A stretch of DNA of 64,000 bases from Vicingaceae bacterium (GCA_018402765.1 JAGYIE010000001.1:868001-932000); one strand, 5' to 3'; positions 2,843 to 50,722 are shown, counted from the first letter of the stretch. A program made the numbers and translations. Notes: generated by a model not told the origin, from the letters alone.

Positions 2843-4196
2843 AATACTAATTATGCTTATCACAATACAAAGTATTGTTTTAGCACAAACAAGCTCTAAT
2901 GTAAGTGTATTATCTAATTGGAAAGCAAATAGCCTCCTTAATGATAATTCTTTCAATACCTACAATGAAATATGGGGTTATGCTCAAAACGGCAGAGAAT
3001 ATGCAATTATTGGCTCAATACTCGGTGTTCACTTTGTTGATATTACATCTCCAAGCAGTCCTGTGGAGGTTGATTTTGAGCAGGGAGCTGAATTTGGATC
3101 ATTTATAATTCATAGAGATTACCACAATTATGGTCAGTATTTATATGCGGTCTGTGATCAAGGCAATGGGAGTACATTGCAGATTTTTGATATGAGCTTT
3201 TTACCTGACTCGGTTCACAAGGTTTATGACTCCAACAATCTTTTTACAAATTCACATAACATATTTATAGATACCACATCAGCACGACTATATGTTTGTT
3301 ATGCAAGAAAAATAGGGAGCTCACTAAACAGTAATGTAGCTGTGTATAGCCTAGCCAATCCGACTAGCCCTTCGTTCATAGGTACCATAAATCAGCGAGC
3401 TCATGATGTATTCGTACAAGGCGATACGGTGTATCTAAATAATGAAGGTAGAGGTCAATATTTCTATGATGCAAGAAATATTAACAATCCTGTTTTATTA
3501 GGTCTTTTAGGTAACTATCCTGACAAAGGATATAATCATAGCGGCTGGTTAGACGATGACGGCAAGCACTATTATTTCGCAGATGAAACGCATGGAATGC
3601 AAATGAAGTCTGTAGATGTCAGTAACTTTAACAACCTTCAAGTATTGGACGTATTTGGAGCAAATTATTCAAATACCTCTATTGCACATAATCTAATCTC
3701 AAAGGGAGATTTTTTGTATGTAAGCCACTATTATGATGGCTTGAGAATATACAATACTTCCGATCCTTCAAACGTAACAGTTGCCGGATTTTACGACACC
3801 TATTTAGGTCCAGATGCAGCAAGTTTCAAAGGCATGTGGGGAGTTTATCCGTTTCTACCATCAGGAAATGTTATTGCTTCAGATATGCAAGAAGGGCTTT
3901 TTGTATTTGATGTTAGTTTGATTACGACAGGAATTCGTTCAAATAAGCTTTTCGAAAAAATAGCTATTTTTCCAAACCCCATTCAAAACACAATACATAT
4001 TACTAATCCTGATCAATTGACTTTAGAAGGCTATCAAGTAATCGATTTACAAGGACGTATTGTAGATTCAGGTAGCCTTAGCTTTGGGCAAGATCAAATT
4101 GAATTAAATAAAGAAATTGGTGAAGGAATATATCTTTTGAAGTTATTTAATCAAAAGGAATCTACTCGTATAAAAATAGTTAAAAGCGGAAGATAG
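2832..4196 (+). CDS. Choice-of-anchor B family secreted protein with T9SS sorting tail
   Basis: A 454-aa protein with a signal peptide (ILIMLITIQSIVLAQ, cleavage near residue 19). The central part, about 30-365, has the choice-of-anchor B / LVIVD pattern: YNEIWGYAQNGREYAIIGS, repeated VHFVDITSPSSP and IYNTSDPSNV motifs, and RAHDVF/HNLISKGDFLYVSHY segments, which suggest a beta-propeller. The last 80 residues form a type A T9SS sorting domain with IFPNP, a GRIVDSG turn and EGIYLLKLF near the end. It is therefore predicted to cross the outer membrane through T9SS and be attached or released. The specific function is unknown. The start overlaps the end of the PNP gene by 11 nt. Codon use and base composition resemble the neighbours. 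Confidence 0.88.
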   Translation: MKSKILIMLITIQSIVLAQTSSNVSVLSNWKANSLLNDNSFNTYNEIWGYAQNGREYAIIGSILGVHFVDITSPSSPVEVDFEQGAEFGSFIIHRDYHNYGQYLYAVCDQGNGSTLQIFDMSFLPDSVHKVYDSNNLFTNSHNIFIDTTSARLYVCYARKIGSSLNSNVAVYSLANPTSPSFIGTINQRAHDVFVQGDTVYLNNEGRGQYFYDARNINNPVLLGLLGNYPDKGYNHSGWLDDDGKHYYFADETHGMQMKSVDVSNFNNLQVLDVFGANYSNTSIAHNLISKGDFLYVSHYYDGLRIYNTSDPSNVTVAGFYDTYLGPDAASFKGMWGVYPFLPSGNVIASDMQEGLFVFDVSLITTGIRSNKLFEKIAIFPNPIQNTIHITNPDQLTLEGYQVIDLQGRIVDSGSLSFGQDQIELNKEIGEGIYLLKLFNQKESTRIKIVKSGR

Positions 4197-24545: not shown

Positions 24546-24576
24546 AAAGCCCGACACGTTAAACGTATCGGGCTTT
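24546..24576. terminator. Bidirectional terminator between uvrA and giant protein 1
   Basis: AAAGCCCGA at 24546-24554 pairs with TCGGGCTTT at 24568-24576, with an inner ACGT/ACGT pairing. A-rich sequence on the left and T-rich sequence on the right flank the stem between convergent genes. Confidence 0.8.
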
Positions 24577-24598: not shown

Positions 24599-27500
24599 CT
24601 ATTTAATAATCAACTTCTGAGTAGAGATTTGATCTCCATTCATCGTTCTTACAAAATAAACGCCTGCTTCTAGAGTTGATACATTAACCGTTTTCGTCTC
24701 TGATGAGCTTCCCACTGTCAATACTTCTTCTTGTACAACTTGACCTCTTGCATTTATAATACTTACTTGGTAATCACCTTTCGCAAAGTTTCCAAAAGTC
24801 ATATTCAATAGATCTTTCGTTGGGTTTGGTGTTAACCCTAACACTGAGGTGCCTCCCAGTTGCTGATCTGCTACTCCTACTATGGTTCCTACTTGGAATT
24901 CATCGATTGCAAATCCATCGTTCTCAATGGTGCCATTCGATACAAATGCAAATCTAAATTTCACTTTAGAGTTGCCGCCTAATCCTTGCAAGTCATTCAA
25001 TACCGGAATCCAGGTTCCTACTCCTCCTATTGAAAAGCCTTCCCATACGTTATCCGTTGTATTGTTGTAGAAGTTCACTGAGGCCATTGATGGAAGTACT
25101 TTAGACCAATTACGCCCATTATCAATAGAATACTCCATCCACACTTGATCAAATCCGATTTCCGTTTTGAATAACGTTCGGAAGTTTAACAGAATCGGAG
25201 TGGTTGGTGCTATTGTTGATAAATCATAGCACGAACTTTCTAAGTATGACATCTCATTGGCATTGTGATTTCCAGCCGCTGATGTAACCCATGCTTTACT
25301 ACCGATGGCTCCATTGATATAAAAGGAACTTGGTGTTCCCCACTCCCATGAAGAATTTGTTCCTGAGGCTACAAAGTTTCCATCGTTACTCTCAAAGGTG
25401 TAATACTTCGTTGGTGAGTTTGCACTGATGGAATCAGAGAAACTACCGATAAATGTATATCCGGTTGATGTATTATTCGATGGATCTCCATCTGCTGCTA
25501 ATGCTATGCTTGCATCTAAGGTGTAACTCTTTATCGCTGATGCATTCACTTTTGCGGCAAACGTAAAGTTATACGTTGTTCCTGGGTTTATCGTCACAGG
25601 GACTGTTTCTGTTACGGGTGCACCTCCATCAAAAATGTAAGTGGCACTTATTCCACTTGCGGGAGATAAGCCTCTGTTCTCTATAGCTATCGTTACATCC
25701 GCTTGATTCGACAGTCCACAGTCTGACGTTGGAGATACTATCGTATCTAAAGCTACATCTACTGCAACAGTGTCATATAAACGTACTTCATCGATTGATA
25801 TATCACCGGTAAAGCTACTTCCGCGAACGCCTAAGAAGGTCAATTGAATTGACTTTCCTTGATAGCCAACTAGCAATCCTGTGGTATCTCTCCATGGATC
25901 AGATTGTACAGTTTGTTGCTGACCTGAAATGGTCAATACCGTATCGGATACATTATTGGTATCTATCAATACATGTAAATCGCCTGTGGTCGCTCCATAC
26001 ATATGGTAGGAGAATTCTAACACTACTCCGCCTGCTGTTGCAGGAACAAATATGGATGGACTTGTAAAGGTATTAGAACTTCCTAAACTTCCCCCTGAGG
26101 TTTCTAAATACATATACTTCCCGCCGGCAGAAGTTGGTGTTGTTGCATCAAACAAAGGTCCTGTAGAAAATGAATTAATGTTAGACCCAGTTGATGTTTC
26201 TGACTCCCATCGTGGGGTTGTTGTTGATCCTGCTGTCCATCCATTGGTAAAGGTTGGGCCGATTTCTCCTGAGTTAAATGTCTCAAAATCCTCATTCAAG
26301 GGAATTGAATAGGCTGTGGCAAAACGATATGGTCCTACCACAGGAGATGAATCGGTTGCTGAACACAGTTCTCTTGCATACAATTCATACGTTGTTCCTG
26401 AAGTCAAACCTGTTATTGACGATGTCGCAGTCGTTGACAATACCGTTGTTCCATTTCCAGGGGTAAAACCAAAGGTTCCGTATTCATACCTAAAGTTACT
26501 TCCTGTTGCTAGTGTACTAAAGGTAACATCTGCTGAGTTGATAGAAACATTCGTAAAGACTGTTGCCGTTGGCGGCACACAGCTTGGTGGATCAAACTCA
26601 TCTGCACCCATATCTACAGTTGTAGAGCCAGGCATAGGGCGTGTGTCCCCGTCTATATCTACAATAATTCCAACACTATTATCACCAACATCATTCGCTA
26701 AACTACCTAGAACATGAAGATCTAATGGGTAATTAATGAATATTGGATCACCTTCAACTGAGTTTGCGTTGAAGGCAGCATTTGCACTTGTATAGGCTCC
26801 CAAGTTAGCGTATGTTGCACCATTCATGCTAAATAATGATGATCCTGAGCTATAATAGCCATTGTAGTCCATTTTTTGGAATACAGTATCAGGCATATTG
26901 GTGCGCAATGCAAAACTTCCATTTGAATAGAAAATGTTATTACGCATATCATAATTACCTATTGCCCTTGAGGTTGATGTGTAAATCTGTACTGCAGGAA
27001 TAGTTGTTCCATTGGTCACAATTGTATTGTGGAAGATCTCTGTGCTATCTATATAGTACATATATAACCCGTAATCTGTAGCTGAATAGATCATGTTATT
27101 CGCTAATCTGTTCTTTCGTGTCTGAGTAAATGCGCCGGTAAAGTCATATATATAAATTCCATAATCCAACGCTCTTAATATGTTGCGAGATATGTCAAAG
27201 TTGGTGGTGTAATAGATATACGCTCCATCTGCATTTACATTCGCCCGTGCTTCCATATCGATTACGTTATCTATAAATGTTAACGTATCTGCATAATAAA
27301 TATAGGCACCATAATAGTACGCCTTTTCAAAGTTATTATTCTCTACTACTAATCCATTTACAGGATCTGTTACGGATCCATATGCACGAATTCCATAATA
27401 CCCTCCCTTGATTGTGTTATCTCTTAATACAACATCGTCTGTTCGTGCTCCCGTTGAATGGCTATTAGAGGCTCCTGATAAGGATACTCCATAAACTAAA

Positions 27501-29878
27501 GAAGAGGTCGAATTTGTATCTGCAATAAGCTCGCAACTACTTATTTCTATATGATTTGAGTTCGATAATATTGCGCCTGCTCCGCTTGATCCTGTGTAAT
27601 TAAACGTAATATTTCTTACTGTTACATAGTCCGCATTATTTAACGATAAGGCTGCATACGCAATCGTTCCATCTTCTGAAATTATGGTCAGACTCGAGTC
27701 TCCTCCATCTATTGTTAATGTATTTGTTGAATTTGCTCCAACTATACCGTTTATTGCTAATGGTTCTAAATATACTCCATTGGCAACATTAACTGTCACA
27801 GCTCCACATACGCCATAATTACTCAACTGCGTTGTTAATTCAACTAATGACGAAAAGTTAGTTGCTGATGGTGCCAAATTGGCATCTACAGTATATGTCC
27901 CCGACAAGCCAGTCCGAACGCCTAAAAATGATAACGTATCATCTACAGGAATTGGATCTGCTATTGTATTTGGGTCCTTGGTGTAGAAAAGAATATCGTA
28001 TACCTGAGTTGAACTAACCGTAAAGGTCGGCAAGGTAACCGAAACTGTATCGCCGGGGTTAATACCTGAGGTATACAATAATGAATCCAATACTCCATTG
28101 ATATCCCACATTACTTTTACGGAAGTCAATGTATCGGATCCGAAATTCTTAACGCCCAATACTGGAGTTAAACTACCAGGACACAATGCGCCGGATGGGC
28201 TTTGAAGCTCAACTACCCCTGCATTAACAGGAGCTACTTGAGTGATACTAATATCATCAATTGACATATCACTGTTAAATGAACTTCCACTTATTCCACG
28301 GAATCTAAGAATTACTGAAGTGCCTTGATAGCCCACTAAATTTGCAGCAAACAAATTAAACGGATCACTTCCTGCTGTTTGTTGTTGTCCTGATATTGTT
28401 GTTAATGGATTCGATACTCCATTGGTGTCTATAAATACTTTTAGGTTCCCCATTGTTGCTCCATACATATGGTAGTAAAACTCAAACAAGACATTCGTCA
28501 TGTTAGTGTCTATATATATTGGTGGACTAACAAAGTCGGCTGAATCTCCTGAACCTCCTGATGTCTCTAAGAACATATACATACCACCTGTAGTCGATGG
28601 AGTCGTATTGTCATAAAATGGGCCTGTATTTGAAGAGTTCTCATTTGCTCCAGTAGCGTCTTCTGACTCCCAACGCGGAGCTGTTGCTCCATTAGTAGAA
28701 CTCCAACCATTTGGCCAAGGGTTATTTATAATACCAGGAGTAAAGCTGGTGAAATCTTCAAAATAAGGAACACCATAAGAGGTGTTAAACGTTACAGGTC
28801 CTACCCATGATGAGGAATCTCCTACTCCACATACAGAACGAACATACACATTATATGTTGATCCTTGGGCTAATCCAGTTAAAGGAATTAAAGAGGTTCC
28901 TGAGGTGCTTGTAGTTCCTGTCCCTAAAGTAAAACCTTGTAAACCATACTCGTATACTAAAGTCCCTAAGTAACCATTCACCTGTATATCTACAGATGTT
29001 AGGCGCTGGTTCACAGGAATCACAGATTGTGGGGGAGTTGCAGTGGTGGGGAATGCAATTGCTGTATCATTAGCAGAAACAGTATCTACAACACCATTTG
29101 GCATCGACGTATAAGCAATTACAGTATTTACACCTGCATTAAACATAGCTGATCCAAGTAATACTTGTGCACTGTAGTTTCCTATACCTGGAATTGTATC
29201 TAATGTTTGATTATATAAAACTGGTGTTTGTAATACTCCATTAACTTCCCAATTAACAGTCACAGAATCAATTTGATTTAAACCAAGATTTGCAATAGTA
29301 GCATACACGTCTTGCATTCCACCACAAAAAACGGCAGGCGAATCTACTGATAAAACCGCTGCATCATTAGTCCCATTAGGAGCTGAAATAATCTCAATCT
29401 CTCTAAAATTAGGGTTAGATAACTGACCCGTACCTTGCATAAGAAAAGAAGTTATTCTAAAAATATCTGTTGTTAACTTTGGAATAGCTATTCTACTTAC
29501 ACATTGCATTGGAAGATTAGAGAATGTCGCATGTGTTATCCAACTAACTCCATCAAAATATTGAATCGTACCTCCACTTAAAAACCGCGTTGTTGAACTA
29601 CCATGATGAATAACTATGGTATCAAAAGTTTCAGGATTTGGAAAATCAAATCTGATGTAATCAACGCCAACTGCATTTGGTGGAGAGGTGCTGATCCACA
29701 TTTGTTGGGTTCCACAAGAACCAAAATTTAAATCGTTTAATGTAGAACATGCTCCTGTTCTGCAACCGCCTCCGCCGGACCCATCTGCAGAAGCTACTGC
29801 CAGTGGCGCAATATTATTTTGTGCTGATGCAAAAATAATAACGACTAGCATTTTGAACAATAATAGCGTTTTTTTCAT
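24599..29878 (-). CDS. Giant T9SS-secreted beta-helix adhesin-like protein 1 (1759 aa)
   Basis: The signal peptide ends near residue 20 (VVIIFASAQ). Modules in order, approximate: F5/8 type C-like domain 25-170 (IRFDFPNPETFDTIVIHHGS); CARDB-like 172-275; fibronectin III-like 285-368; MAM-like 370-550; CARDB-like 552-650; right-handed beta-helix 660-1090; fibronectin III-like 1095-1190; MAM-like 1198-1375; CARDB-like 1378-1480; a MAM-like domain 1495-1680; and a type A T9SS sorting tail 1683-1759 (LTPNPTKDLL, EAGVYFVRT, final KLIIK). It should be exported through T9SS to the surface or medium. It is paralogous to the next gene upstream. Enzyme activity is not evident; adhesion or polysaccharide binding is possible. 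Both genes have their own terminator. Confidence 0.85.
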   Translation of the reverse strand: MKKTLLLFKMLVVIIFASAQNNIAPLAVASADGSGGGGCRTGACSTLNDLNFGSCGTQQMWISTSPPNAVGVDYIRFDFPNPETFDTIVIHHGSSTTRFLSGGTIQYFDGVSWITHATFSNLPMQCVSRIAIPKLTTDIFRITSFLMQGTGQLSNPNFREIEIISAPNGTNDAAVLSVDSPAVFCGGMQDVYATIANLGLNQIDSVTVNWEVNGVLQTPVLYNQTLDTIPGIGNYSAQVLLGSAMFNAGVNTVIAYTSMPNGVVDTVSANDTAIAFPTTATPPQSVIPVNQRLTSVDIQVNGYLGTLVYEYGLQGFTLGTGTTSTSGTSLIPLTGLAQGSTYNVYVRSVCGVGDSSSWVGPVTFNTSYGVPYFEDFTSFTPGIINNPWPNGWSSTNGATAPRWESEDATGANENSSNTGPFYDNTTPSTTGGMYMFLETSGGSGDSADFVSPPIYIDTNMTNVLFEFYYHMYGATMGNLKVFIDTNGVSNPLTTISGQQQTAGSDPFNLFAANLVGYQGTSVILRFRGISGSSFNSDMSIDDISITQVAPVNAGVVELQSPSGALCPGSLTPVLGVKNFGSDTLTSVKVMWDINGVLDSLLYTSGINPGDTVSVTLPTFTVSSTQVYDILFYTKDPNTIADPIPVDDTLSFLGVRTGLSGTYTVDANLAPSATNFSSLVELTTQLSNYGVCGAVTVNVANGVYLEPLAINGIVGANSTNTLTIDGGDSSLTIISEDGTIAYAALSLNNADYVTVRNITFNYTGSSGAGAILSNSNHIEISSCELIADTNSTSSLVYGVSLSGASNSHSTGARTDDVVLRDNTIKGGYYGIRAYGSVTDPVNGLVVENNNFEKAYYYGAYIYYADTLTFIDNVIDMEARANVNADGAYIYYTTNFDISRNILRALDYGIYIYDFTGAFTQTRKNRLANNMIYSATDYGLYMYYIDSTEIFHNTIVTNGTTIPAVQIYTSTSRAIGNYDMRNNIFYSNGSFALRTNMPDTVFQKMDYNGYYSSGSSLFSMNGATYANLGAYTSANAAFNANSVEGDPIFINYPLDLHVLGSLANDVGDNSVGIIVDIDGDTRPMPGSTTVDMGADEFDPPSCVPPTATVFTNVSINSADVTFSTLATGSNFRYEYGTFGFTPGNGTTVLSTTATSSITGLTSGTTYELYARELCSATDSSPVVGPYRFATAYSIPLNEDFETFNSGEIGPTFTNGWTAGSTTTPRWESETSTGSNINSFSTGPLFDATTPTSAGGKYMYLETSGGSLGSSNTFTSPSIFVPATAGGVVLEFSYHMYGATTGDLHVLIDTNNVSDTVLTISGQQQTVQSDPWRDTTGLLVGYQGKSIQLTFLGVRGSSFTGDISIDEVRLYDTVAVDVALDTIVSPTSDCGLSNQADVTIAIENRGLSPASGISATYIFDGGAPVTETVPVTINPGTTYNFTFAAKVNASAIKSYTLDASIALAADGDPSNNTSTGYTFIGSFSDSISANSPTKYYTFESNDGNFVASGTNSSWEWGTPSSFYINGAIGSKAWVTSAAGNHNANEMSYLESSCYDLSTIAPTTPILLNFRTLFKTEIGFDQVWMEYSIDNGRNWSKVLPSMASVNFYNNTTDNVWEGFSIGGVGTWIPVLNDLQGLGGNSKVKFRFAFVSNGTIENDGFAIDEFQVGTIVGVADQQLGGTSVLGLTPNPTKDLLNMTFGNFAKGDYQVSIINARGQVVQEEVLTVGSSSETKTVNVSTLEAGVYFVRTMNGDQISTQKLIIK

Positions 29879-29927
29879 ATACTTAGTTTTAATTAGTTTA
29901 TTGACCCAATTTACTTAAAAAAAGATC

Positions 29928-29962
29928 AAAAAAAAAGTCCCTTACGCTAAGCGTAAGGGACT
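29928..29962 (-). terminator. Terminator of giant protein 2 gene
   Basis: A perfect 12-bp stem (AGTCCCTTACGC / GCGTAAGGGACT, loop TAA) is followed on the minus strand by nine T residues. It lies 25 nt after the stop of the 2272-aa gene and 50 nt before the start of the 1759-aa gene, so the paralogs are separate transcripts or only read-through coupled. Confidence 0.85.
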
Positions 29963-29987
29963 AAGTCAATTAAAATTTACTAATCAA

Positions 29988-32900
29988 TTATTTGATAATT
30001 AACTTTTGAGTAGTTAATGTTTCACCGTTTACAATTCTCACAAAGTACACACCCGCCTCGATTCCTTCAAGGTTGATGGTCTTCGTATCGAAACTTGAAC
30101 CGATACTCATTACATTGTTGCTCACCATTTGTCCATTCATATTAACAATATCCACTTGGTAATCTCCATTATTGTAGTTTCCAAAGGTTATGTTTACTAA
30201 ACCACTTGTTGGGTTTGGCTGAATTGATAAACTTGTTGCACCATTGAATAATTCATTGTTGCCTACTGCCAAGTTAATCTTGAAGTCGTCAATTCCAAAT
30301 CCATCATTTTCTATCGTTCCATTTGAACTAAATACAAATCTGAATTTAACTTTTGCATTTCCGCCTAAGCCCACTACATCATTCAATACAGGTATCCATG
30401 TTCCTACTCCTCCATTAGAGAAGCCTTCCCATACATTGTCTGTTGTGTTGTTGTAGAAGTTAATTGAGCTTCCTGATGGCATCACTTTGCTCCATGATCC
30501 TCCATTGTTGGTTGAATATTCTAACCACACTTGGTCTGCTGCTATTTCTGTTTTGAACAACGTGTAGAACGACATAAACAACGGCTCTGTTGCTGAGAAT
30601 CCTGACATATCAAAACACTGTGTCTCTAAATATGACAGTTCGTTTGCATTGTGATTCGTTGCCAAGCCTGTTACCCACGCTTTTGTTCCTGATCGTGCTG
30701 CGTTGATATAGAACGTATTTGGTGTTCCATATGCCCATGAACTATTCGCGCCATATGCTGAGAAGTCTCCATTGTTGGCCTCAAAGTCATACGATACGAT
30801 TGCACTTGTACTATCAATTGTGGTTGATGGTGATCGTACAATGTTTACAGATAATGAATCATTTGATGGTATACTATCTGCAGGACTCTGAGATACATAT
30901 ACATCTAATGCATAACCACCTGCTACGCTAAAGTTAGCTTGTGTATTAAAGGTATATGCATAGCTTGTACCTCCTCTAATCGTATCGGTAATTGTTTCCG
31001 TTACAGGTGTTCCTCCATTCAATACATACGTAATTGGTGTATTGATGTATGGAGTTGATCCTGCATTGGTCAAACTTACAATGATATCCTCATTCGCATT
31101 CAAGCCACAGTCTGACAATAAAGTAAGCATAGAGTCTATTTGGATGTTTGTTTGGATAGAGTCATATAATCTAAAGTTATCCATTCCAAATCCGTCTCCG
31201 TTTTGAACTGATCCATCTGATCCAAATGCAAATCGGAACAATACAGATGGCTCTCCTGCCAAAGTATCTACCAATCGTCTTACTGGTACCCATGATCCAC
31301 TTCCAGGGGTTCCTGTCCATCCTTCTTGACTAGGCTCTAATGCAGCCAAAGCATTCACCGAATTATCAGTATACCAGTTACCAGGATCTCCAAATGCACC
31401 TAATTTAGTCCATGTAGCTCCTCCGTCTAATGAATATTGCAATACTGCTCCATCCCACGAAAACTCACAATTCCACCATACATCAAATTCCAAAATTGGA
31501 ATACCTAAGGAGGACATATCCATACATGGGGATTGAATCCAACCTGCTTCGTTTGCATTATAGATTCCTGTTAGGTTTGTTACCCACGCTTGTGTTCCGT
31601 CTGATGCAGTATCTATGGTTGTTCCACCAGGTACTCCATGTGCAAATGTTGTAGCTCCATTAGCTGTCCAACCTCCATTACCTGTTTCAAAACTCTCCAC
31701 ATACGGGAAACTTGAAATTAATGGAATACTTGTTACTGACTTAAAGATACTGTCATTTGTCTGTACAGGGTCTCCTGCTAATACAACATAAGCGTCAACT
31801 GTATGTGCGCCTGCTGCTGATAAATTGGCTGTAGCTGTAAACGTATAGCTTAGCGTTGCTGCAGGAGCGATTGATGCAGTTACTGTTTCTGTTACAGTTG
31901 CTCCTCCATCTACGATTAAGTTTGCAGTAAAGCCTGTCGCTGCTGCTAATCCAAAGTTGGTAATGTCAATGGTTACTGCCTCTGTTGATGTTAACCCACA
32001 TTGAGTAACCGGCGCTGTCATTGCTGTGATACCAATCTCTTGTGCTGATGGCTCAAACAATGCTACTTCATCAATTGCCATATCACCTGTAAAACTAGAA
32101 CCTCTTACGCCAATAAATCGAAGCACGATGGACTTTCCAGCATAACCTGTTAATGGAGTAGTAGAGGTTAAAAAGGGATCTGATCCCGCTGTCTGCTGCT
32201 GTCCTATAATGGTCACTACTGTGTCAGATACATTATTGGTATCAACAACGACATATAGCTCCCCCATGGTAGCACCATACATATGATAGTCAAACTCCAA
32301 GGTTAATGCATTTGCCGCTGCTGGAACAAACACTGCAGGACTTGACAATACATTCTGAGAACCTAAAGATCCCCCTGAAGTTTCTAAATACATGTACTTT
32401 CCACCTGCAACTCCCGGAGTTGTTGCATCGTAAAAAGGTCCTGTAGAAAAAGAATTCTTATCCGCTCCTGATGCATCTTCTACTTCCCATCTTGGAGTAG
32501 TAGCACTATTGTTGGACCATCCATTCGCAAAGGATGTTCCACCGTTACCTACAACAAATGTTTCAAAATCTTCATTCAATGGAATTGAAAACGCTGTTCC
32601 AAATGCATACGGCCCTACAATTGGAGAGGCACTTGTTGGAGAACACAATTCCCTAACATACACATCATACGTTGTTCCTGAAGATAACCCAGTAATAGCA
32701 ATCGATGCTGTCAAAGCAGTATCCAATTGACCAGTCCCTTGTGTAAATCCTACAGGACCATACTCATATTCCCAACTAGAACCTACCCCACCTACAAAAT
32801 TAATGTCAGCAGAAGTAATCGTTATATTGGTAAATGTTACAGCTGTTGGTGGTACACATGAAGGTGGTGTATACTCATCTGCTCCCATATCTACTACTGT

Positions 32901-35900
32901 AGAACCTGAAGCAGGTCGTGCATCCCCATCAATATCAATAACAATACCTACTGTATTGTCACCCATATCGTTTACTAAGCCACCCAATACATGGAAATCT
33001 AATGGGTAATTCAAAAACTGTGGATCTCCCTCTAATGAATTAGCATTAAATGCTGAATTTGCTGTTATGTAAGCACCAAGAGTTGAGTAAGAAGTTAAAT
33101 TTATGCTTAACATCTCCGTACCTGAAGTGTAATAGTTATTGTAATCCAATGCTGCAAACATCGTATCAGCATAGTTCGTTCGCATAGCAAAAGACCCATT
33201 TGAATAAAAGATGTTGTTACGTAAATCATATCCTGACATTGGATAAGTAGTCGTACTGTAAATTTGTACAGCAGGAATAGATGAACTATTCGACACTACT
33301 GTGTTGTGGAACATATCTATACTATTTAAATAGTACGTATACAATCCATAATCTGAATCAGAATAAATCATGTTATTCGCAATTACATTTCTTCGTGTAG
33401 AAGGGAAATAATTACCAAAATCATAGAAATACATTCCGTAATCAGGTGCTTTTATTAAGTTCTCAGTAAATACAAAGTTATTGGTGTAATAAATATACCC
33501 CCCGTCTGCAAACGCATTTGCACGGTCTGTTATATCTACTGTATTACCAATAATATCTACTGAGTCAGTATAATAGAAGTATAATCCATAATAGTATTGT
33601 TTAGTAAACTCATTGTTCACTAAAGAAACTCCTTTAACAGGATTTCCTGTAGACCCATAGGCTCTAATTCCATAATACCCTCCTTTAACGATACTGTTCG
33701 ATACATTAAAGAAATCAGAAGACGATGCCGTTGAATGTGAAGTAGTAGACGAAGAAATTGATATTGGATACAATAGAGAAGACGTACTGTTGGTATCAAC
33801 TGTTAAAATACTACTTTGGATACTGATATGATTAGTATTTGAAACAATCACTGATGCCCCTGAAGCTCCAGTGTAATCAATTGACATATTCTTGATTGTT
33901 ACATAATCAACTCTATCTAGCGATACAGTACCGAAGCTTGATGTTCCATCATGTGACAATAAAGTTGCTGAAGAATCACCACCATCTATCGTAATGGTAT
34001 TTGTTGAACTTGCTCCAATTACATTATTCAAGGTTAAACTCTCTAGATATGCGCCAGGTGTAACGTTTACCGTTACAGGGCCACAAACACCAAATGAGTT
34101 TAACGCCAATGATAAATCAGCAAATGTTACAAAGTTAGTTGCACTTGGCGATATATTTGGATCTAAAGTAAATGTTCCTGAAATAGAAGCTCCTGCTGCA
34201 ATAGAAGTCGTGTCATTGCCTGGGAATGCATCTGGAACTACTGTTCCATTCGCTCCACTTACTACTGCTTCAAATACTACTGGTGTATTGGCTGCGAATG
34301 CGTAATTCGTCAACAATATTTGTGCAGAATTTCCTCCTGTTGAACCAATGGTATCAATTAAAGTAGTGTAGCTAATTGGTGTTTGACCAACTCCGTTGAT
34401 CGACCAATTAATAGTTAAACTATTTACTTGAGATGTCCCATTGTTTGATACCGTTACAAATACATTTTCGCTCCCTACACAGAATGGTGTAGCAATGTCT
34501 ATTGAACTAGCAGCAATGTCCAATGCAGGAGACGCAACGTTAAATGCACCGATGTCATTAGCTGATACAACACGAGCCACTCCATTAAAGTCTTCTACTA
34601 CCTGTGATGCAGGAAATCCTGCTGCATTTAGTGAAAGATTTGCCGGTTGGTAGTCATCAGCTGCTATATTTGCATATAAAGGATCGGCCTCAACGTCATT
34701 TGCTCCGTAACCTGCAGCTTGAAAATCAGCTAAAGTGGTTCTATTTGAACCCACATAACCATAACTATTCGTTCCCGTTGTTGAGCCAATAAATACATTA
34801 TTATTCGTGGCTGCATCAATTGAGCCATTCAAATAAATACCATGTTTAGCTCCTGAACCACCTCTCGTAATGGTGATGATGTTGTTTCTAAATTCAGAAC
34901 CTGCAGATGTTGACGACTGATAGTATCCTCTTGTAATTCCTGCCGTTGAGCCTGCATTATCTAATGAAATAATGTTGTTGTAATACAAGTTGTTATCACT
35001 ACCTAAATCATAAATACCATAAATAGTACCATTATGATTGATGTTATAAATCAAGTTATTCATGATAACAGCCTCTTTTCCTACAGGAACATCGTTACTG
35101 TTGTAAATTGGATAACATGTACTGGTAGATGTAGTGATGCCATCAAATAAATTGTGAATCGCATTTCTGTTCATCACCATTGATTGGTTCCCTAAACTGT
35201 ATACACCATAAGTAGTAGTTGATGCCGTTCTATTGGCTCTAGTAATATCATTTCGCTGCAAAGACAATCCATCTGTGTAGGAAATTCGTGGACCATAGAA
35301 ATACCAATCTTGAAATACGTTATCTTCAATAACGATATTATTTAGAAGGGAAGCAGAACTGCCTGCCATTGATAAAGAATAGTATCCACCCGATACCGTA
35401 TTACCAGTAAAAGTAAAGTTACTAAGACTTGCAGCAGTAAATGCTGAAGTCATCGATCCACTTACCAAAACACCTGTAAAGAAAGATGAGGTAGATGTCG
35501 CATCTGTTGAGATAAGTGAGTTGGTAATGGATATATCATTCGAACCATTTACAAAAACTCCATATCCGTATGTACCACCCGTAGCATCTATAATTAAACT
35601 ATCGACACTGATAAATGATGAATTAACGATACTAATTACTGCGCGATCAGTTGAAGAGCTACTTGCAAAAGATAAAATTTCATTATTACCATTAATGGTA
35701 ATAGAACGATTTGGCGCTCCATTAATGCCATTAAAATTAACCTGCTCAATGTAAGGCCCTGAACCTGTTGCAACATTTACCGTGACGTTACCACAAATAC
35801 CAAATTGACTTACCGCATTAGCAAAGTCAGTAAAGGAAACATACGTTGACGCAGATGGAGTTCCATTAGCATCAATAGTATACGCGCCTCCTGCTAAGGA

Positions 35901-36806
35901 AGCTGCCTTTACAGAAGAAATTGTATCATTAAAATTAGATGTATCAGCAACACCATTTGGCATTGATGTCCACACTTTGATTGTATTAGGGGAACCTGCT
36001 GTAAACATTTTTGTTCCCAAAAATAAAGAAGCTGTATTACCAGATGAGGAATTTAATGTGTCGATTAATGTGGTGTAATTAATTGACGTTTGTGCAACTC
36101 CATTAAACTCCCAGTTAACAATCACCGAATCTAATTGATTAGAACCAAAATTGGCAATTGTTGCATAAATATCTTCCATACCTGCACAAAAAACTGAGGG
36201 CGAATCAACTGATAGCACTGCAGCGTCATTCGCACCTCCTAGTATAGAATAACGAATTCCTCCATTAAATTGGCGAGGGTGAAAAGTTGGATTAGGGGCA
36301 CCACCACCGTAACCTACAAGATTACCTGTTTCAATAGTTGCTATACCATCGGTAAAAGGCGCCGAAACACCTGCAGTACCTGTCGTATATCTTAAACTTC
36401 CGCCACCTACAAAAAATCCATAAGTTTGACCTGCTGGTATTAGTAATCCAAAATTTGCAGGAAGAGCCGTTATAGACCCATCGGTTACACCTGTTGAAAC
36501 TGTTAGACCTGTCCCGATTTGTGTCCAACCAGAAGCAGAAGAAATGGTAGGAGGTCCTGAAATAGCAGTTGGTGTATACCATACATCAAAAGAACCTGCT
36601 GCAGCAGTTACTAAGATTGAATCTAATAACATTGTTTGACCTGCAGTTATGTTAAATGTTACACCTGCACTGCCATTCCCTCCATTCAATGGGGGAACAG
36701 TATTTAGTGCAAATTGGGCCGAAGCCGATGTCGATAAAAGAATTATTAAAGCAAGCATTAAAAACTTACCTCTATCTTTAATCGATGAAGTTGTAGTTTT
36801 CATCAT
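29988..36806 (-). CDS. Giant T9SS-secreted beta-helix adhesin-like protein 2 (2272 aa)
   Basis: The signal peptide ends near residue 30 (LLSTSASAQ). Modules, approximate: unique N-terminal beta domain 32-190; CARDB-like 195-300; first right-handed beta-helix 303-758, ending in ANDIGAFNV; CARDB-like 760-870; second beta-helix 877-1310; fibronectin III-like 1312-1405; MAM-like 1410-1588; CARDB-like 1590-1697; MAM-like 1699-1885 (EFSWDGAVLQYSLDGGATW); CARDB-like 1890-1995; MAM-like 2005-2185; T9SS tail 2192-2272 (IQPNPTSGLV, EAGVYFVRI, KLIIK). From 877 onward it follows the order of protein 1, with one extra MAM-CARDB pair. The first helix and the N-terminal domain have no counterpart there. Likely a secreted or surface protein; the ligand is unknown. 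Confidence 0.85.
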   Translation of the reverse strand: MMKTTTSSIKDRGKFLMLALIILLSTSASAQFALNTVPPLNGGNGSAGVTFNITAGQTMLLDSILVTAAAGSFDVWYTPTAISGPPTISSASGWTQIGTGLTVSTGVTDGSITALPANFGLLIPAGQTYGFFVGGGSLRYTTGTAGVSAPFTDGIATIETGNLVGYGGGAPNPTFHPRQFNGGIRYSILGGANDAAVLSVDSPSVFCAGMEDIYATIANFGSNQLDSVIVNWEFNGVAQTSINYTTLIDTLNSSSGNTASLFLGTKMFTAGSPNTIKVWTSMPNGVADTSNFNDTISSVKAASLAGGAYTIDANGTPSASTYVSFTDFANAVSQFGICGNVTVNVATGSGPYIEQVNFNGINGAPNRSITINGNNEILSFASSSSTDRAVISIVNSSFISVDSLIIDATGGTYGYGVFVNGSNDISITNSLISTDATSTSSFFTGVLVSGSMTSAFTAASLSNFTFTGNTVSGGYYSLSMAGSSASLLNNIVIEDNVFQDWYFYGPRISYTDGLSLQRNDITRANRTASTTTYGVYSLGNQSMVMNRNAIHNLFDGITTSTSTCYPIYNSNDVPVGKEAVIMNNLIYNINHNGTIYGIYDLGSDNNLYYNNIISLDNAGSTAGITRGYYQSSTSAGSEFRNNIITITRGGSGAKHGIYLNGSIDAATNNNVFIGSTTGTNSYGYVGSNRTTLADFQAAGYGANDVEADPLYANIAADDYQPANLSLNAAGFPASQVVEDFNGVARVVSANDIGAFNVASPALDIAASSIDIATPFCVGSENVFVTVSNNGTSQVNSLTINWSINGVGQTPISYTTLIDTIGSTGGNSAQILLTNYAFAANTPVVFEAVVSGANGTVVPDAFPGNDTTSIAAGASISGTFTLDPNISPSATNFVTFADLSLALNSFGVCGPVTVNVTPGAYLESLTLNNVIGASSTNTITIDGGDSSATLLSHDGTSSFGTVSLDRVDYVTIKNMSIDYTGASGASVIVSNTNHISIQSSILTVDTNSTSSLLYPISISSSTTSHSTASSSDFFNVSNSIVKGGYYGIRAYGSTGNPVKGVSLVNNEFTKQYYYGLYFYYTDSVDIIGNTVDITDRANAFADGGYIYYTNNFVFTENLIKAPDYGMYFYDFGNYFPSTRRNVIANNMIYSDSDYGLYTYYLNSIDMFHNTVVSNSSSIPAVQIYSTTTYPMSGYDLRNNIFYSNGSFAMRTNYADTMFAALDYNNYYTSGTEMLSINLTSYSTLGAYITANSAFNANSLEGDPQFLNYPLDFHVLGGLVNDMGDNTVGIVIDIDGDARPASGSTVVDMGADEYTPPSCVPPTAVTFTNITITSADINFVGGVGSSWEYEYGPVGFTQGTGQLDTALTASIAITGLSSGTTYDVYVRELCSPTSASPIVGPYAFGTAFSIPLNEDFETFVVGNGGTSFANGWSNNSATTPRWEVEDASGADKNSFSTGPFYDATTPGVAGGKYMYLETSGGSLGSQNVLSSPAVFVPAAANALTLEFDYHMYGATMGELYVVVDTNNVSDTVVTIIGQQQTAGSDPFLTSTTPLTGYAGKSIVLRFIGVRGSSFTGDMAIDEVALFEPSAQEIGITAMTAPVTQCGLTSTEAVTIDITNFGLAAATGFTANLIVDGGATVTETVTASIAPAATLSYTFTATANLSAAGAHTVDAYVVLAGDPVQTNDSIFKSVTSIPLISSFPYVESFETGNGGWTANGATTFAHGVPGGTTIDTASDGTQAWVTNLTGIYNANEAGWIQSPCMDMSSLGIPILEFDVWWNCEFSWDGAVLQYSLDGGATWTKLGAFGDPGNWYTDNSVNALAALEPSQEGWTGTPGSGSWVPVRRLVDTLAGEPSVLFRFAFGSDGSVQNGDGFGMDNFRLYDSIQTNIQIDSMLTLLSDCGLNANEDIIVSLTNAGSTPYINTPITYVLNGGTPVTETITDTIRGGTSYAYTFNTQANFSVAGGYALDVYVSQSPADSIPSNDSLSVNIVRSPSTTIDSTSAIVSYDFEANNGDFSAYGANSSWAYGTPNTFYINAARSGTKAWVTGLATNHNANELSYLETQCFDMSGFSATEPLFMSFYTLFKTEIAADQVWLEYSTNNGGSWSKVMPSGSSINFYNNTTDNVWEGFSNGGVGTWIPVLNDVVGLGGNAKVKFRFVFSSNGTIENDGFGIDDFKINLAVGNNELFNGATSLSIQPNPTSGLVNITFGNYNNGDYQVDIVNMNGQMVSNNVMSIGSSFDTKTINLEGIEAGVYFVRIVNGETLTTQKLIIK

Positions 36807-37198: not shown

Positions 37199-37783
37199 TT
37201 AGTACGTTTGCAATTCTTTATAATCCAACTTTAACAGTAAATTATCCATTTCCATTTCAAACTGCTTTAACTCCTGTGGACCTTTAACTCGATCTACCAC
37301 AACCTTTATATTGTCATCGTACTGAATTAACATTATCGTAGATGGCACATCTGTCATATTCCCGTCATATCGATCATTTAATTTAAAAAAGTTAATCTGA
37401 TTTGCCTTCTTCAATATAGTATCCATATCATCTTGACTAACTCTGCTCTCAAAAAAACCAATTAACTCAACATTTCTTTTGCCATGATACATAACATAGC
37501 CACTTTTAAAAACTGAAATATTATAAGTAGGACATCGACCAAAACAAGACGTCCTTTCAATTTTAAAAAATAAAGAATCAGATACCCCTTTAAGAATCCT
37601 ATTTTGCTGCTCCTTTGACTCATCAGGCCAATTTTCTGAATAGGTGGTATCAGCGATAGGGACGCTACTTTCAGATTTTTTAACTTCTGACTTTATTGAA
37701 CTTTTAGAACTTGACTCCTTTTTACTTTTACAAGAAAAAATTGATGTCAAAACTATGAGTGAAATAACTACTAATTTATTCAT
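37199..37783 (-). CDS. DUF6438 lipoprotein
   Basis: A 194-aa lipoprotein: the signal peptide MNKLVVISLIVLTSIFSC makes Cys18 the lipidation site. A Ser/Lys-rich linker runs to about 45. The region from about 70 to 190 matches the DUF6438 pattern, with IERTSCFGRCPTYNISVFKS near residue 76 (two Cys in CFGRC), GYVMYHGKRNV and ending in a helix. The function of the domain is unknown. It starts 4 nt after the yidC stop, so it is co-transcribed with pyrG and yidC, and a hairpin follows it. Confidence 0.82.
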   Translation of the reverse strand: MNKLVVISLIVLTSIFSCKSKKESSSKSSIKSEVKKSESSVPIADTTYSENWPDESKEQQNRILKGVSDSLFFKIERTSCFGRCPTYNISVFKSGYVMYHGKRNVELIGFFESRVSQDDMDTILKKANQINFFKLNDRYDGNMTDVPSTIMLIQYDDNIKVVVDRVKGPQELKQFEMEMDNLLLKLDYKELQTY

Positions 37784-45371: not shown

Positions 45372-47969
45372 ATGAAAAACTTTAGTGTAACCTTCTTACT
45401 TATTTTAATTCTGTGCTTTACTTCTTTTGCACAAGAACTGCATACTGTAATAAACTTGCAGTTAAATGAGTATTTATTAGCCACACAAGGAGAGGAAAAA
45501 ATTCACTTACTTATTGAGGCAAATAATCCCCAATTTGAAGAAGATGCGCTAATACTTGGAGCAAAAATAAAAGTAAAACAAGGACGATATTATTCAATAA
45601 TTCTGAAGTGCAAAGATGTACGGCAATTGGCGGCGTCTAAATTTATTAAGCGAATTGATTTCAGCATTGATCAACCGCACTACCTTGGTGATACAATGCT
45701 AATAAACAATAATATCGTAAAAATACATCAAGCTGCAGCTCCTCTTACCCGAGCTTATAACGGTGAAGGAGTTTTAATTGGAATTATTGACAGCGGAATA
45801 GACTACAACCATCCTGATTTTCAAGATAGTTTAGGAAGAACAAAAATTCTAGCGATTTGGGATCAAAATAAACCAATAAATGCGAGCACCCCATTAAAAT
45901 ATGGGTATGGGCAGCAATGGGATAGCACAGCTATAAACGCTAATATTGCTAATCATGATGACCCTGCAAATCAATTTGGACACGGCTCGATGGTTTCTGG
46001 AGCGGCTGCATCAACTGGATTAGCCACAGGTAATTTTAAAGGAATTGCGCCAAAAGCAAACCTAGTAGTGGTGTCTAGCAATTTTGGCTCGACTAGCTTT
46101 TTATCCAATATTGCTGATGCTACCGACTACATTTATTCAATTGCAGATAGTCTTGGAATGCCGTGTGTAATTAATGCGAGTTTAGGAACCTATGTAGGCT
46201 CTCATGATGGAAAAGATGTATCCGCTCAACTTATTGACCAAATGATAAAAGCCAAAAGAGGCAGAGCATTTGTAGCAGCTAACGGTAATGCAGGAGATGT
46301 CAAATTTCACTTGGGATATCAAGTTAATGCTGACACTAACTTTACATGGTTTAAGGCTGCACCAAACGTTTTTAACCCATTTGTCTATTTTAGATTATAT
46401 GCAGATACTGCAGATTTCGATAACGTTAGATTTTCACTTGGAGCTGACCAAATTTCTCCAAGCTATAAATTTAGAGGACGTACAGACTTTAAATCAATTA
46501 AACCATCTCTTAATACATACCAATACGATACAATATATAGCCCCACCAATGGAAATGTAATCACGGAAATAAGAACATTTGCCGAGGAGTCAAATGGAAC
46601 CTATATGCTAGAGGTATATATGAATCGACCTGATTCCAATAATTACAATTTTAGGTTTGAAACCACAGGTTCAGGTAAATTTGACCTATGGTCTTCAAAT
46701 ACATTGATGCCTTATTCTGACATGGTAAGTACTGGCCTTCCGAGTGTAGCTCAATTTCCTGACATTATCAATTACAAACGCCCAGACAGTCTATCTACCA
46801 TGGTAAGCAGTTTTACATGCCTCCCAAGTGTTGTAAGTGTTGGAAATTATCAAAATAGGAAAAGCTACCTTGCTGTAAATAATGTACTACAAATAATGCC
46901 AGGAACACCAGGCAGAATATCTCCAAAATCTAGCCTAGGCCCTAACAGATTAGGAGTAATAAAACCAGATATTTCAGCGTCAGGAGACTACACCCTAGCT
47001 GCAGGAAGACTAGCTACAATTCAACAAATTATTCAATCCGATCCTGCAAAAATAAGCGCTGACTCAATGCACATGAGAAATGGAGGAACGTCAATGGCGA
47101 GCCCTGTGGTAGCAGGTTTATTTGCTTTATACCTACAGAAGTGCCCAAACGCCTCCTACTTAGAACTAAGTCAAGCAATTATCAATCAAGCTAAAGTTGA
47201 TAATTTCACAGGAGTTGTACCTAACTTTACTTATGGATTCGGTAAAGTTGATGGCTTCGAAGCTTTAATTAACTCTATACAAAAACCAACTTTAGCTCCC
47301 ATAACACTACAAAACCTTTGTCTAGGTGATTCTGTATTGCTATATCCAATACCTGCAAATTATAACCAATACCTATGGAGTAATGGTGATACCAATGGAT
47401 TTAGTTTTGCAAAAAGTGATGGTCGCTATTTTTTAGCAGTTCACGATCAACAAGGTTGTAAAGTCAATAGTGATACATTAAATCTAGTATTTAACCCAAC
47501 CCCACCTAAACCAAATTTATTTCAAAATTACGATACACTATACACCACTACTAATGGATTATTCAATTGGTATAGAGATGGATTTAAAATAAATGGTGTT
47601 ATTGATTCCTTTTTGGTTGTTAATCAAAATGGGAATTATTGGACTAGATTAATTAACCCTAATACCTCTTGTGGTAAGAATTCCGATACCATTTATTACT
47701 CAGCAACCTATACAGACAATAATTCACCAGGTAGTTTTTACATTTATCCAAACCCGGCAAAAGACGAGGTAAACCTTGTTAATATACCTTACAATGCGAC
47801 TTCTGTAAAACTATATAACCACATAGGAAAACTTATACTTGATATTCCGTATCATAGCGCAGACAACAAAAAATCAATTAATACGTCTTATTTAAGTAAT
47901 GGAGTTTTCATCTTACAAATAAAAACAAAGGCAGGAAGCATTAACAACAAATTAATTATCAGCAAATGA
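45372..47969 (+). CDS. Subtilisin-like serine protease with T9SS tail, 865 aa
   Basis: A secreted S8 peptidase. The signal peptide ends near residue 20 (LCFTSFAQ). A propeptide-like segment covers about 25-105. The catalytic triad is visible: Asp140 in GIIDSGIDYNHPDF, His204 in FGHGSMVSG and Ser574 in GGTSMASPVVAG. About 370 residues separate His and Ser, because a beta-rich domain is inserted there. Residues 640-780 are Ig-like (LCLGDSVLLYPIP). The last 75 residues are a T9SS sorting tail (IYPNPAKDEVN, SNGVFILQI, KLIISK). It is probably exported and active outside the cell. Its end overlaps the start of the second subtilase by 4 nt. Confidence 0.92.
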   Translation: MKNFSVTFLLILILCFTSFAQELHTVINLQLNEYLLATQGEEKIHLLIEANNPQFEEDALILGAKIKVKQGRYYSIILKCKDVRQLAASKFIKRIDFSIDQPHYLGDTMLINNNIVKIHQAAAPLTRAYNGEGVLIGIIDSGIDYNHPDFQDSLGRTKILAIWDQNKPINASTPLKYGYGQQWDSTAINANIANHDDPANQFGHGSMVSGAAASTGLATGNFKGIAPKANLVVVSSNFGSTSFLSNIADATDYIYSIADSLGMPCVINASLGTYVGSHDGKDVSAQLIDQMIKAKRGRAFVAANGNAGDVKFHLGYQVNADTNFTWFKAAPNVFNPFVYFRLYADTADFDNVRFSLGADQISPSYKFRGRTDFKSIKPSLNTYQYDTIYSPTNGNVITEIRTFAEESNGTYMLEVYMNRPDSNNYNFRFETTGSGKFDLWSSNTLMPYSDMVSTGLPSVAQFPDIINYKRPDSLSTMVSSFTCLPSVVSVGNYQNRKSYLAVNNVLQIMPGTPGRISPKSSLGPNRLGVIKPDISASGDYTLAAGRLATIQQIIQSDPAKISADSMHMRNGGTSMASPVVAGLFALYLQKCPNASYLELSQAIINQAKVDNFTGVVPNFTYGFGKVDGFEALINSIQKPTLAPITLQNLCLGDSVLLYPIPANYNQYLWSNGDTNGFSFAKSDGRYFLAVHDQQGCKVNSDTLNLVFNPTPPKPNLFQNYDTLYTTTNGLFNWYRDGFKINGVIDSFLVVNQNGNYWTRLINPNTSCGKNSDTIYYSATYTDNNSPGSFYIYPNPAKDEVNLVNIPYNATSVKLYNHIGKLILDIPYHSADNKKSINTSYLSNGVFILQIKTKAGSINNKLIISK

Positions 47970-50722
47970 TGAAAAACATTTTTCTTTATACATTCTTTTG
48001 CTTTTTTACACTTAATTCTTTCGGCCAGCTATCTAAGCTAAAAAATCAGGAGAATAGTATCATTTTTAAGCTAAAAGACCTTGAAATAAATAAAGATGGA
48101 ACTTTCCAAGACGAATCTATTCAAGAGTTATTGAATAAATTACCAAATCAAGTGGTTCAGCTTTTCCCTGCTAGAAAAATAATAAATAAAAATGGGGGTA
48201 TTAAAAGTGACCTTTCAACAATTTTTGGGATAGAGGTAGCTAATGATAAGCAACTAAAAATTCTAATCAATCGATTGAATAATAATAAAGGAATACTTTA
48301 TGCAGAAAAACTAGTCATTCCTGAACTATGCTACCTACCTTCAGATACCTTTTTACCTAGACAATATCAACTTTCAATTATTAAAGCGTTCGAAGCTTGG
48401 GATATAGAGAAAGGAGATTCCTCCGTTGTGATTGCGATTACTGACACAGGAATTGACATTGACCATGAAGACTTGGAAGGAAATATTGCCTATAACTACA
48501 ATGATCCAATAAATGGAATTGATGACGATAACGACGGCTATATCGATAATTTTAGAGGATGGGACACAGGGGACAATGATAACGATCCGTCAACATTCAG
48601 CAGTAATCATGGAAATAACGTTGCCGGTCTAGCGGGGGCTCAAACAGACAACCAAAAAGGAATAGCGGGCACAGGATTTAATTGCAAATTCTTGCCGATA
48701 AAAATTGACACTGACCTAGGAGGCAGATTAGTAGGAGCATATGACGCCATTATCTATGCAGCAGATCACCATGCAGATATAATAAACTGCTCTTGGGGTA
48801 GCTATACTTTTGGTAATCTTGGAAATGATATCATAAATTACGCCACGAACAAAGGTAGCTTAGTTATTGCTGCTGTAGGAAATGATGGACGAAATGACCC
48901 TTTTTATCCTGCTGCTTATACCAACGCCTTAGCAGTTGGAATGTCGGACAGTTCAGACTTCATAAGGGATAATTCCAATTATGGGACTTATCTGGATTTA
49001 GTGGCTATTGGGCAAGGCATGTGGACCACAGGGAATAATAATATTTACAACTATAATGGCGGTACGAGCATGGCCAGCCCTTTAGTAGCAGGTGCAGCAG
49101 GAATAGTAAAATCTAAGTATCCAAACTTTGAACCATTACAAATTGCTGAGCACATTAGAAACACTACCGATAATATCAATAATAAGCAGGCAGCTAAATA
49201 CAAAGATAAAATCGGAACAGGGCGACTTAATATGTTTAAATCAGTAAGTCAATCGCTTAAACCAGGTTTAAGGATGGAACTTATATCGATAAACGATGGA
49301 AATGATTCAGTTTTTGTAGAGGGAGATACACTTAGATTTAGTATAAAATTTAAAAATTACTTAGCATCGACAGATAATTTAAAAGCCAAAATATCCTCTC
49401 CTTCGAATAGCTTAATCTTTATCAAAGATGAAATCAATTTAGGTACATTAAATACGCTAGAGGATAAATCAAATAGTGGGACGCCGTTTATGGCAATCGT
49501 TCGAAAGGCAAGTGAGTACAATGAAATTGTGCAATTTAAAATAAGGGTAGAGAATAATACCTATGTAAGGGATGCATGGTTCTCTACTACCGTGAACTTA
49601 AATTATATTAACGTCTCAAATAATTTAATTTCAACCACAATAAGTAGTAACGGACGATTAGGATATAATGATTTAGCCAACAATCAAGGTATCGGTTTTT
49701 TATATAAAAATTCAAATTCCACACTCTATGAGGGTAGCTTGCTAATCGGTAATGCATCTTCTATTACTGACGGATTTAGAGGTAATCCGGGAGAAACGGA
49801 TTTAGACTTTTTGAGCATCCAAAATGTCAAAAGCATAGAAGCAGTAAAGGCAAATCAAGAATTTGAAGGAATCATTGCACCAAAAAACAGTCAATATAAA
49901 GTAGAACAAAAAAGCTATTTATTTAACGACAGTACTAAAAAAAATTACATTATACATGCCTATAAAATAACAGCCAATCAACAGCTAAACCAATTTTATG
50001 CAGGCTTTTTAATCGATTGGGATATTCTTAACTTCTCTAAAAATAAAACAGACTTTGATCCCGTTAATGAATTAGCTTACAGCTTTTCTACGGAAACAAA
50101 CTCTCCATACTTTGGATCACAACTACTATCTCATACTAACGCAATTAGCTTTGGGATTGACAATATTTCAGGTGGGAACAATGGAATAGATCTGAGCAAT
50201 GGATTTAGCGACCAAGAAAAGTTCCTCGTTCTGTCTACAAAAAATGAAAAAGCAGGACTAACTTCACCAAGTGGAAATGATATTTTACAAACAGTTAGCT
50301 ATGGCCCCTTCAATCTAGATAAGGATAGCTCTATCGTTCTTGCATTTTCAATTTTAGCAGCTGATAGCTTATCTGAACTTAGAAACTATGCAAATAGCGC
50401 AAAGCAGACTTACCAAAATTTAAACCTAGGTGACTTTTGGGTAGATCGAATAGTACCAACTGTTCCAATTTTCGACAGTAAAGTGTATCCAAATCCGGCG
50501 CAAGAAGCGTTAACTATTGAAATAAAGCTAAGTTATTCAGACCATATTGTAGTTAGTTTGCAGAATTACTTAGGGCAAGAATTATTAGTGAACCAATATC
50601 AAGGTTTTGAAGGGTTAAACTTGTTAACAATGGATGCTTTAAATGCAAGACCAGGTTTATATTTTTTAATCATTAAAACAAATGGTAAGGAGAAACTTCA
50701 TAAAATTGTGCTCCAATATTAA
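47966..50722 (+). CDS. Subtilisin-like serine protease with T9SS tail, 918 aa
   Basis: A second secreted S8 peptidase, translationally coupled to the first (ATGA overlap). The signal peptide ends near residue 20 (LNSFGQ). A propeptide-like region runs to about 125. The triad is Asp160 in AITDTGIDIDHEDL, His215 in NHGNNVAG and Ser368 in GGTSMASPLVAG. The segment IDDDNDGYIDN (184-195) looks like a calcium loop. Residues 430-830 are beta-rich, of unknown function. The T9SS tail covers the last 80 residues (VYPNPAQEAL, ARPGLYFLII). The catalytic domain is compact, unlike that of the upstream protease, so the two are distant relatives rather than a fresh duplication. Confidence 0.92.
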   Translation: MMKNIFLYTFFCFFTLNSFGQLSKLKNQENSIIFKLKDLEINKDGTFQDESIQELLNKLPNQVVQLFPARKIINKNGGIKSDLSTIFGIEVANDKQLKILINRLNNNKGILYAEKLVIPELCYLPSDTFLPRQYQLSIIKAFEAWDIEKGDSSVVIAITDTGIDIDHEDLEGNIAYNYNDPINGIDDDNDGYIDNFRGWDTGDNDNDPSTFSSNHGNNVAGLAGAQTDNQKGIAGTGFNCKFLPIKIDTDLGGRLVGAYDAIIYAADHHADIINCSWGSYTFGNLGNDIINYATNKGSLVIAAVGNDGRNDPFYPAAYTNALAVGMSDSSDFIRDNSNYGTYLDLVAIGQGMWTTGNNNIYNYNGGTSMASPLVAGAAGIVKSKYPNFEPLQIAEHIRNTTDNINNKQAAKYKDKIGTGRLNMFKSVSQSLKPGLRMELISINDGNDSVFVEGDTLRFSIKFKNYLASTDNLKAKISSPSNSLIFIKDEINLGTLNTLEDKSNSGTPFMAIVRKASEYNEIVQFKIRVENNTYVRDAWFSTTVNLNYINVSNNLISTTISSNGRLGYNDLANNQGIGFLYKNSNSTLYEGSLLIGNASSITDGFRGNPGETDLDFLSIQNVKSIEAVKANQEFEGIIAPKNSQYKVEQKSYLFNDSTKKNYIIHAYKITANQQLNQFYAGFLIDWDILNFSKNKTDFDPVNELAYSFSTETNSPYFGSQLLSHTNAISFGIDNISGGNNGIDLSNGFSDQEKFLVLSTKNEKAGLTSPSGNDILQTVSYGPFNLDKDSSIVLAFSILAADSLSELRNYANSAKQTYQNLNLGDFWVDRIVPTVPIFDSKVYPNPAQEALTIEIKLSYSDHIVVSLQNYLGQELLVNQYQGFEGLNLLTMDALNARPGLYFLIIKTNGKEKLHKIVLQY

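Follow-up and report, generated by a model that had tools for sequence, protein, structure and literature searches.

In a 64,000-nucleotide stretch of the genome of a Vicingaceae bacterium (Flavobacteriales; GCA_018402765.1, JAGYIE010000001.1:868001-932000; hereafter the window), two neighboring minus-strand open reading frames (ORFs) encode giant modular proteins, designated A and B. They are probably paralogous binding proteins, displayed through the type IX secretion system (T9SS) and diversified by the exchange of modules between paralogs. The two ORFs of 1759 and 2272 amino acids (aa), recognized in an earlier sequence-only reading of this DNA, were confirmed at the following positions, which, like all coordinates below unless a contig is named, are those of the whole window.

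24599 to 29878, minus strand: gene of protein A, 1759 aa, intact ORF; module order head (CBM32-like), CARDB, FN3, MAM, CARDB, beta-helix, FN3, MAM, CARDB, MAM, sorting tail.
29988 to 36806, minus strand: gene of protein B, 2272 aa, intact ORF; module order head (beta-sandwich), CARDB, beta-helix 1, CARDB, beta-helix 2, FN3, MAM, CARDB, MAM, CARDB, MAM, sorting tail.

BLASTP aligned A and B over approximately 1180 aa at 49% identity (E = 0), with a second block of 435 aa at 51%. In an all-against-all comparison of the individual modules of both proteins, the identities were 58% for the beta-helix, 59% for FN3, 67% for MAM, 67% for the terminal MAM, 61% for the first CARDB, 53% for the tail, and 41% for the later CARDB. 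The shared collinear series proposed from the sequence is thus a homologous region, with modules 41-67% identical, and not a succession of unrelated folds. The near-identical motifs reported in it were also found, such as FYNNTTDNVWEGFS, which is common to both proteins at around aa 1602 of A and aa 2116 of B. As for the modules by which the two differ, the additional beta-helix and the additional CARDB-MAM pair ascribed to B are both present. However, the earlier description overlooked an FN3-MAM-CARDB block of A (aa 279-655), which occupies the same slot as a beta-helix-CARDB block of B. The two beta-helices of B are 34% identical to each other and come from two old subfamilies.

29045 to 29380, minus strand: first CARDB of A, aa 167-278, 61% identical to the first CARDB of B.
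35907 to 36242, minus strand: first CARDB of B, aa 189-300, 61% identical to that of A; modeled fold matching the CARDB domain 3idu (Z 12.4).
27914 to 29044, minus strand: FN3-MAM-CARDB block of A only, aa 279-655, from the module comparison.
34185 to 35906, minus strand: beta-helix 1-CARDB block of B only, aa 301-874, from the module comparison.
26588 to 27913, minus strand: beta-helix of A, aa 656-1097, Pfam Beta_helix 67 bits, 58% identical to beta-helix 2 of B.
32865 to 34184, minus strand: beta-helix 2 of B, aa 875-1314, from the module comparison.
25445 to 26587, minus strand: FN3-MAM-CARDB of A, aa 1098-1478, Pfam MAM (whole-protein score 111.8 bits).
32049 to 32864, minus strand: FN3-MAM of B, aa 1315-1586, Pfam MAM.
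31155 to 32048, minus strand: additional CARDB-MAM pair of B, aa 1587-1884, internal-MAM subclass by tree, approximately unbiased (AU) test, and DNA matches to a paralog on G000:C10.
24875 to 25444, minus strand: terminal (InhA-like) MAM of A, aa 1479-1668, Pfam InhA-like_MAM, 67% identical to that of B.
30267 to 30818, minus strand: terminal (InhA-like) MAM of B, aa 1997-2180, from the module comparison and MAM tree.

Searches with Pfam and NCBIfam models placed MAM, the InhA-like MAM, the beta-helix, and the sorting tail above their cut-offs, and CARDB and FN3 below. PF00629 (MAM; cut-off 26.4) scored 111.8 and 47.4 bits, and PF20773 (InhA-like MAM; cut-off 26.9) scored 28.5 and 30.5 bits, in A and B, respectively. 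Pfam Beta_helix scored 67.2 bits in A (cut-off 25.9) and matched six of nine relatives. The Pfam CARDB scores of the whole proteins were slightly below the cut-off; the CARDB fold was recognized in the model of the first CARDB of B.

Export by the T9SS, as the earlier reading had suggested, is well supported at the sequence level. Both C-termini carry a type A sorting tail.

24599 to 24874, minus strand: T9SS type A sorting tail of A (PF18962/TIGR04183), with matches to solved C-terminal domains (CTDs).
29988 to 30266, minus strand: T9SS type A sorting tail of B (PF18962/TIGR04183), with matches to solved CTDs.

At the ends of A and B, PF18962 (cut-off 27) gave 56.5 and 51.6 bits and TIGR04183 (cut-off 23) gave 45.6 and 44.1 bits. 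The tail profile matches the solved T9SS sorting domains 8glk and 8qb1, and both proteins have the sorting tail. By eye, the hydrophobic N-termini resemble signal peptides and end in FASAQ (A) and SASAQ (B). The genome also encodes SprA (2638 bits) and PorU (1344 bits), together with 91 type A tails above the cut-off; A and B are therefore two among many cargoes. In the published model of type A cargo, the tail is recognized, the protein passes through SprA, and PorU cuts it, leaving the protein attached to the surface or released (PMC10202324). A and B resemble such cargo in the CTD-matching tail and the accompanying SprA and PorU, and probably in the signal-like N-terminus; as predicted cargo, they differ in their unusual length and many modules. 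Sec would carry each chain across the inner membrane, the tail would guide it across the outer membrane through SprA, and cleavage by PorU would result in display on the cell or release. The CARDB, FN3, MAM, and beta-helix repeats may then form an extended stalk that bears a binding head. Among the papers searched, none was useful on T9SS cargo with MAM or CARDB domains.

The two heads were aligned with relatives (alignments A2 and A3) and modeled with AlphaFold2 (AF2).

29381 to 29824, minus strand: head of A, predicted F5/8 type C or CBM32-like fold, aa 19-166, from the AF2 model and VIA Z scores.
36243 to 36716, minus strand: head of B, predicted lectin-like or PHR-like beta-sandwich, aa 31-188, from the AF2 model and VIA Z scores.

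The model of the A head (pLDDT 87) matched many CBM32 and galactose-binding chains over approximately 130 residues at VIA Z 13.6-15. The F5/8 type C-like head assigned to A from the sequence was thus borne out by the predicted fold, the discoidin-like jelly roll of the CBM32 and F5/8 type C families (Z 14-15 to CBM32 structures). On the other hand, the A head itself scored 17.2 and 17.5 bits with the Pfam F5_F8_type_C models, below the curated cut-offs of 28.2 and 27.8, and these models match weakly in 6-8 of 16 members, with relatives matching better than A, down to E 6e-6. On its model, the A head is CBM32-like in fold and not a curated family member. The model of the B head (pLDDT 86) came closest to PHR domains and to the Cwp84 lectin-like region, at VIA Z 10.4-10.9 over approximately 136 residues; these scores exceed the usual background and do not fix a family. 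A weak match of the A3 profile to antibody light chains lay mostly in its Ig-like CARDB part and was set aside as fold-level noise. The earlier description of the N-terminal domain of B as unique did not hold: it was found in 44 of the 247 genomes of the class, at many positions in many proteins and often internally. The A head occurs less often, in 11 of the 247 genomes, six of which also carry the B head; the hypergeometric p of 0.005 for this overlap ignores kinship and was not used as support. A surface adhesin or sugar-binding role with diverged specificity, as proposed from the sequence, fits the predicted fold classes of the two heads.

Protein A and its ortholog in the congener G002 are 82% identical in protein sequence and 35% identical at four-fold sites, and the synonymous sites of A and B are likewise saturated. 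Because of this saturation, the near-identical motifs, which lie mostly in the terminal MAM, reflect selection at the protein level and not recent copying. A recent conversion event between the two genes was rejected, as identity at four-fold sites is only 26-51% and no exact match exceeds 19 bases. The MAM tree groups the terminal MAMs of A and B with those of their congeners and places the additional MAM of B among internal MAMs that belong to paralogs encoded on other contigs. Forcing this additional MAM and the last MAM of B together cost 116 log-likelihood units (AU p = 0.0002). In-place duplication was therefore rejected as the source of the additional MAM, and its separate, non-local origin is firm. 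A itself is likely a mosaic; its terminal MAM pairs with that of A', its counterpart in the congener G001 (support 99/99).

The order yidC-DUF6438-B-A-uvrA was compared with the same locus in relatives. G002 has uvrA-A-B, with recA and uvrA beside A, and its B runs off the contig end with the head outside. G001, an Acidiluteibacter, has yidC-DUF6438-B'-A' followed by a third copy that enters a scaffold gap. The B-A pair is thus kept at this locus in two congeners, and in G009, a more distant family member, uvrA adjoins a beta-helix giant. The module orders at the G001 locus differ. B' is of the B type with three beta-helices and without the extra MAM, and A' has an A-type head on a B-type two-helix body without the FN3-MAM block, in one gap-free ORF. 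Two further G001 copies, C and D, have A-like front halves, with the A-like beta-helix fused directly to CARDB-MAM modules of the type of another paralog, and the head of D is 83% identical to that of A. The module trees, the AU test, and the differing orders in G001 support the earlier proposal of duplication with module gain, loss, or exchange. An old duplication would have given rise to the pair, and whole modules may then have been gained, lost, and exchanged among paralogs, including those at other genomic loci, presumably by recombination. Pseudogene copies in G001 were considered and set aside, since the breaks coincide with runs of N. Two Acidiluteibacter contig ends (L061, 1512-2554, and L058, 6594-7636) share a 1043-base tract at 93.6% identity, either an assembly-breaking repeat or a recent copy, and two short tandem ORFs on L063 (7306-9966) consist purely of CARDB-MAM-tail, a minimal terminal cassette.

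Several observations weigh against this reading. Holding A with A' in the beta-helix tree was rejected marginally (p = 0.04), for a group that was named after quick trees had been seen. Copies C and D lie at scaffold gaps or contig ends, and parts of them may be mis-assembled. In addition, proteins with an A-like order in G022 and G030 contain an internal MAM, so that a loss of the extra MAM in A is possible instead of a gain in B. Plain tandem duplication followed by independent divergence would agree with the adjacency of A and B, their collinearity over most of their length, and the saturated synonymous sites with no visible recent conversion between them. It is nevertheless unlikely, because the additional MAM of B belongs to a different subclass, A' joins an A head to a B-type body, and the orders vary at one locus within the genus. 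At the other extreme, a dedicated antigenic-variation system, in which silent cassettes feed expressed copies, could explain the fragmentary near-identical tracts (93.6-98.8%) between G001 copies. These tracts adjoin scaffold gaps or contig ends, and no recent donor or silent cassette was seen among the compared paralogs of the window's own genome, whose DNA is approximately 65-73% alike in stretches of more than 50 bases. We consider such a system highly improbable.

The binding role must likewise be weighed against other functions. Right-handed beta-helices are frequent in polysaccharide lyases, and A and B might be secreted polysaccharide-active enzymes, with the beta-helix as the catalytic part, a lyase or hydrolase, and with accessory binding domains in the remaining modules, among them the CBM32-like head of A. 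However, the beta-helix profile had no match among the sequences of solved structures up to E = 0.1 and matched solely the generic Beta_helix and NosD models. Furthermore, no catalytic family model matched anywhere in A and B, although a divergent enzyme is possible, and the annotated neighbors are housekeeping genes, with no polysaccharide-utilization genes beside the pair. This alternative has about the same low likelihood as plain duplication. RemA-type adhesins that act in gliding or biofilms and are driven by the T9SS motor have a precedent in Flavobacterium johnsoniae RemA, a mobile surface lectin that functions in gliding and has a type A CTD (PMC10202324). Likened by description, A and B are also large T9SS type A proteins in the same proposed role class, and A has a CBM32-like head; they differ from RemA in this head and in a stalk that contains beta-helices. 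Approximately 90 cargoes of this genome share the same kind of tail. In addition, we know of no motility in this organism. Adhesins of the RemA type are no more probable than the enzymes, and display of A and B as module-exchanging binding proteins is the preferred explanation.

Hairpins were found after both genes.

29936 to 29962, minus strand: intrinsic terminator separating B from A, stem of 12 pairs with a T tail.
24546 to 24576, minus strand: terminator-like hairpin between A and uvrA, following A, from the fold.

A near-identical stem of the B-A terminator is present in G002, and other strong hairpins lie between tandem copies in G001, G009, L127, and L142. These hairpins suggest separate transcription units for the tandem copies, unless read-through is used; each copy would then be its own unit, or nearly so.

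The window's own genome comprises 3.1 Mb in 16 contigs. The upstream neighbors of B are the genes for a DUF6438 protein, YidC, and CTP synthase; downstream of A lie a convergent uvrA, a gene for a sigma-70-family factor of the extracytoplasmic function (ECF) type, and recA. The DUF6438 gene (37199-37783) adjoins yidC and is kept with it beside the giant-gene array in Acidiluteibacter. Elsewhere in the window, two tandem overlapping subtilase (S8) genes (45372-50722) each encode a T9SS sorting tail, and a T9SS-tailed protein otherwise without a Pfam match (2832-4196) is flanked by a phosphorylase-superfamily gene and gatB.

Giants that combine the same beta-helix, FN3, MAM, and CARDB modules in many different orders, frequently as tandem copies, occur in Flavobacteriales, Saprospiraceae, and Chitinophagales. 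The exact orders of A and B are restricted; in the genomes inspected, the A-like order was confined to a few genera of Vicingaceae. In another family, three tandem genes (L188, 77-5648; G040:C14) have similar bodies and unlike heads, two of which belong to the A and B types; the shared body differs from that of A and B. Because of these genes and the related giants elsewhere, tandems with like stalks and unlike heads are not peculiar to the window, and A and B belong to a large, ordinary family of probable surface-binding proteins. Modular T9SS cargoes of giant size are common in Bacteroidota, and most of them are uncharacterized; A and B leave the known picture of T9SS export unchanged. It is conceivable, but unlikely, that the tandem arrays constitute a head-swapping system, in which paralogs at one locus retain a common stalk and tail and trade different binding heads and stalk blocks with other loci; if so, each species would acquire a combinatorial set of surface binders. 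One stalk with two heads at a conserved locus offers a clean start for studies of head-ligand binding and of module re-assortment.

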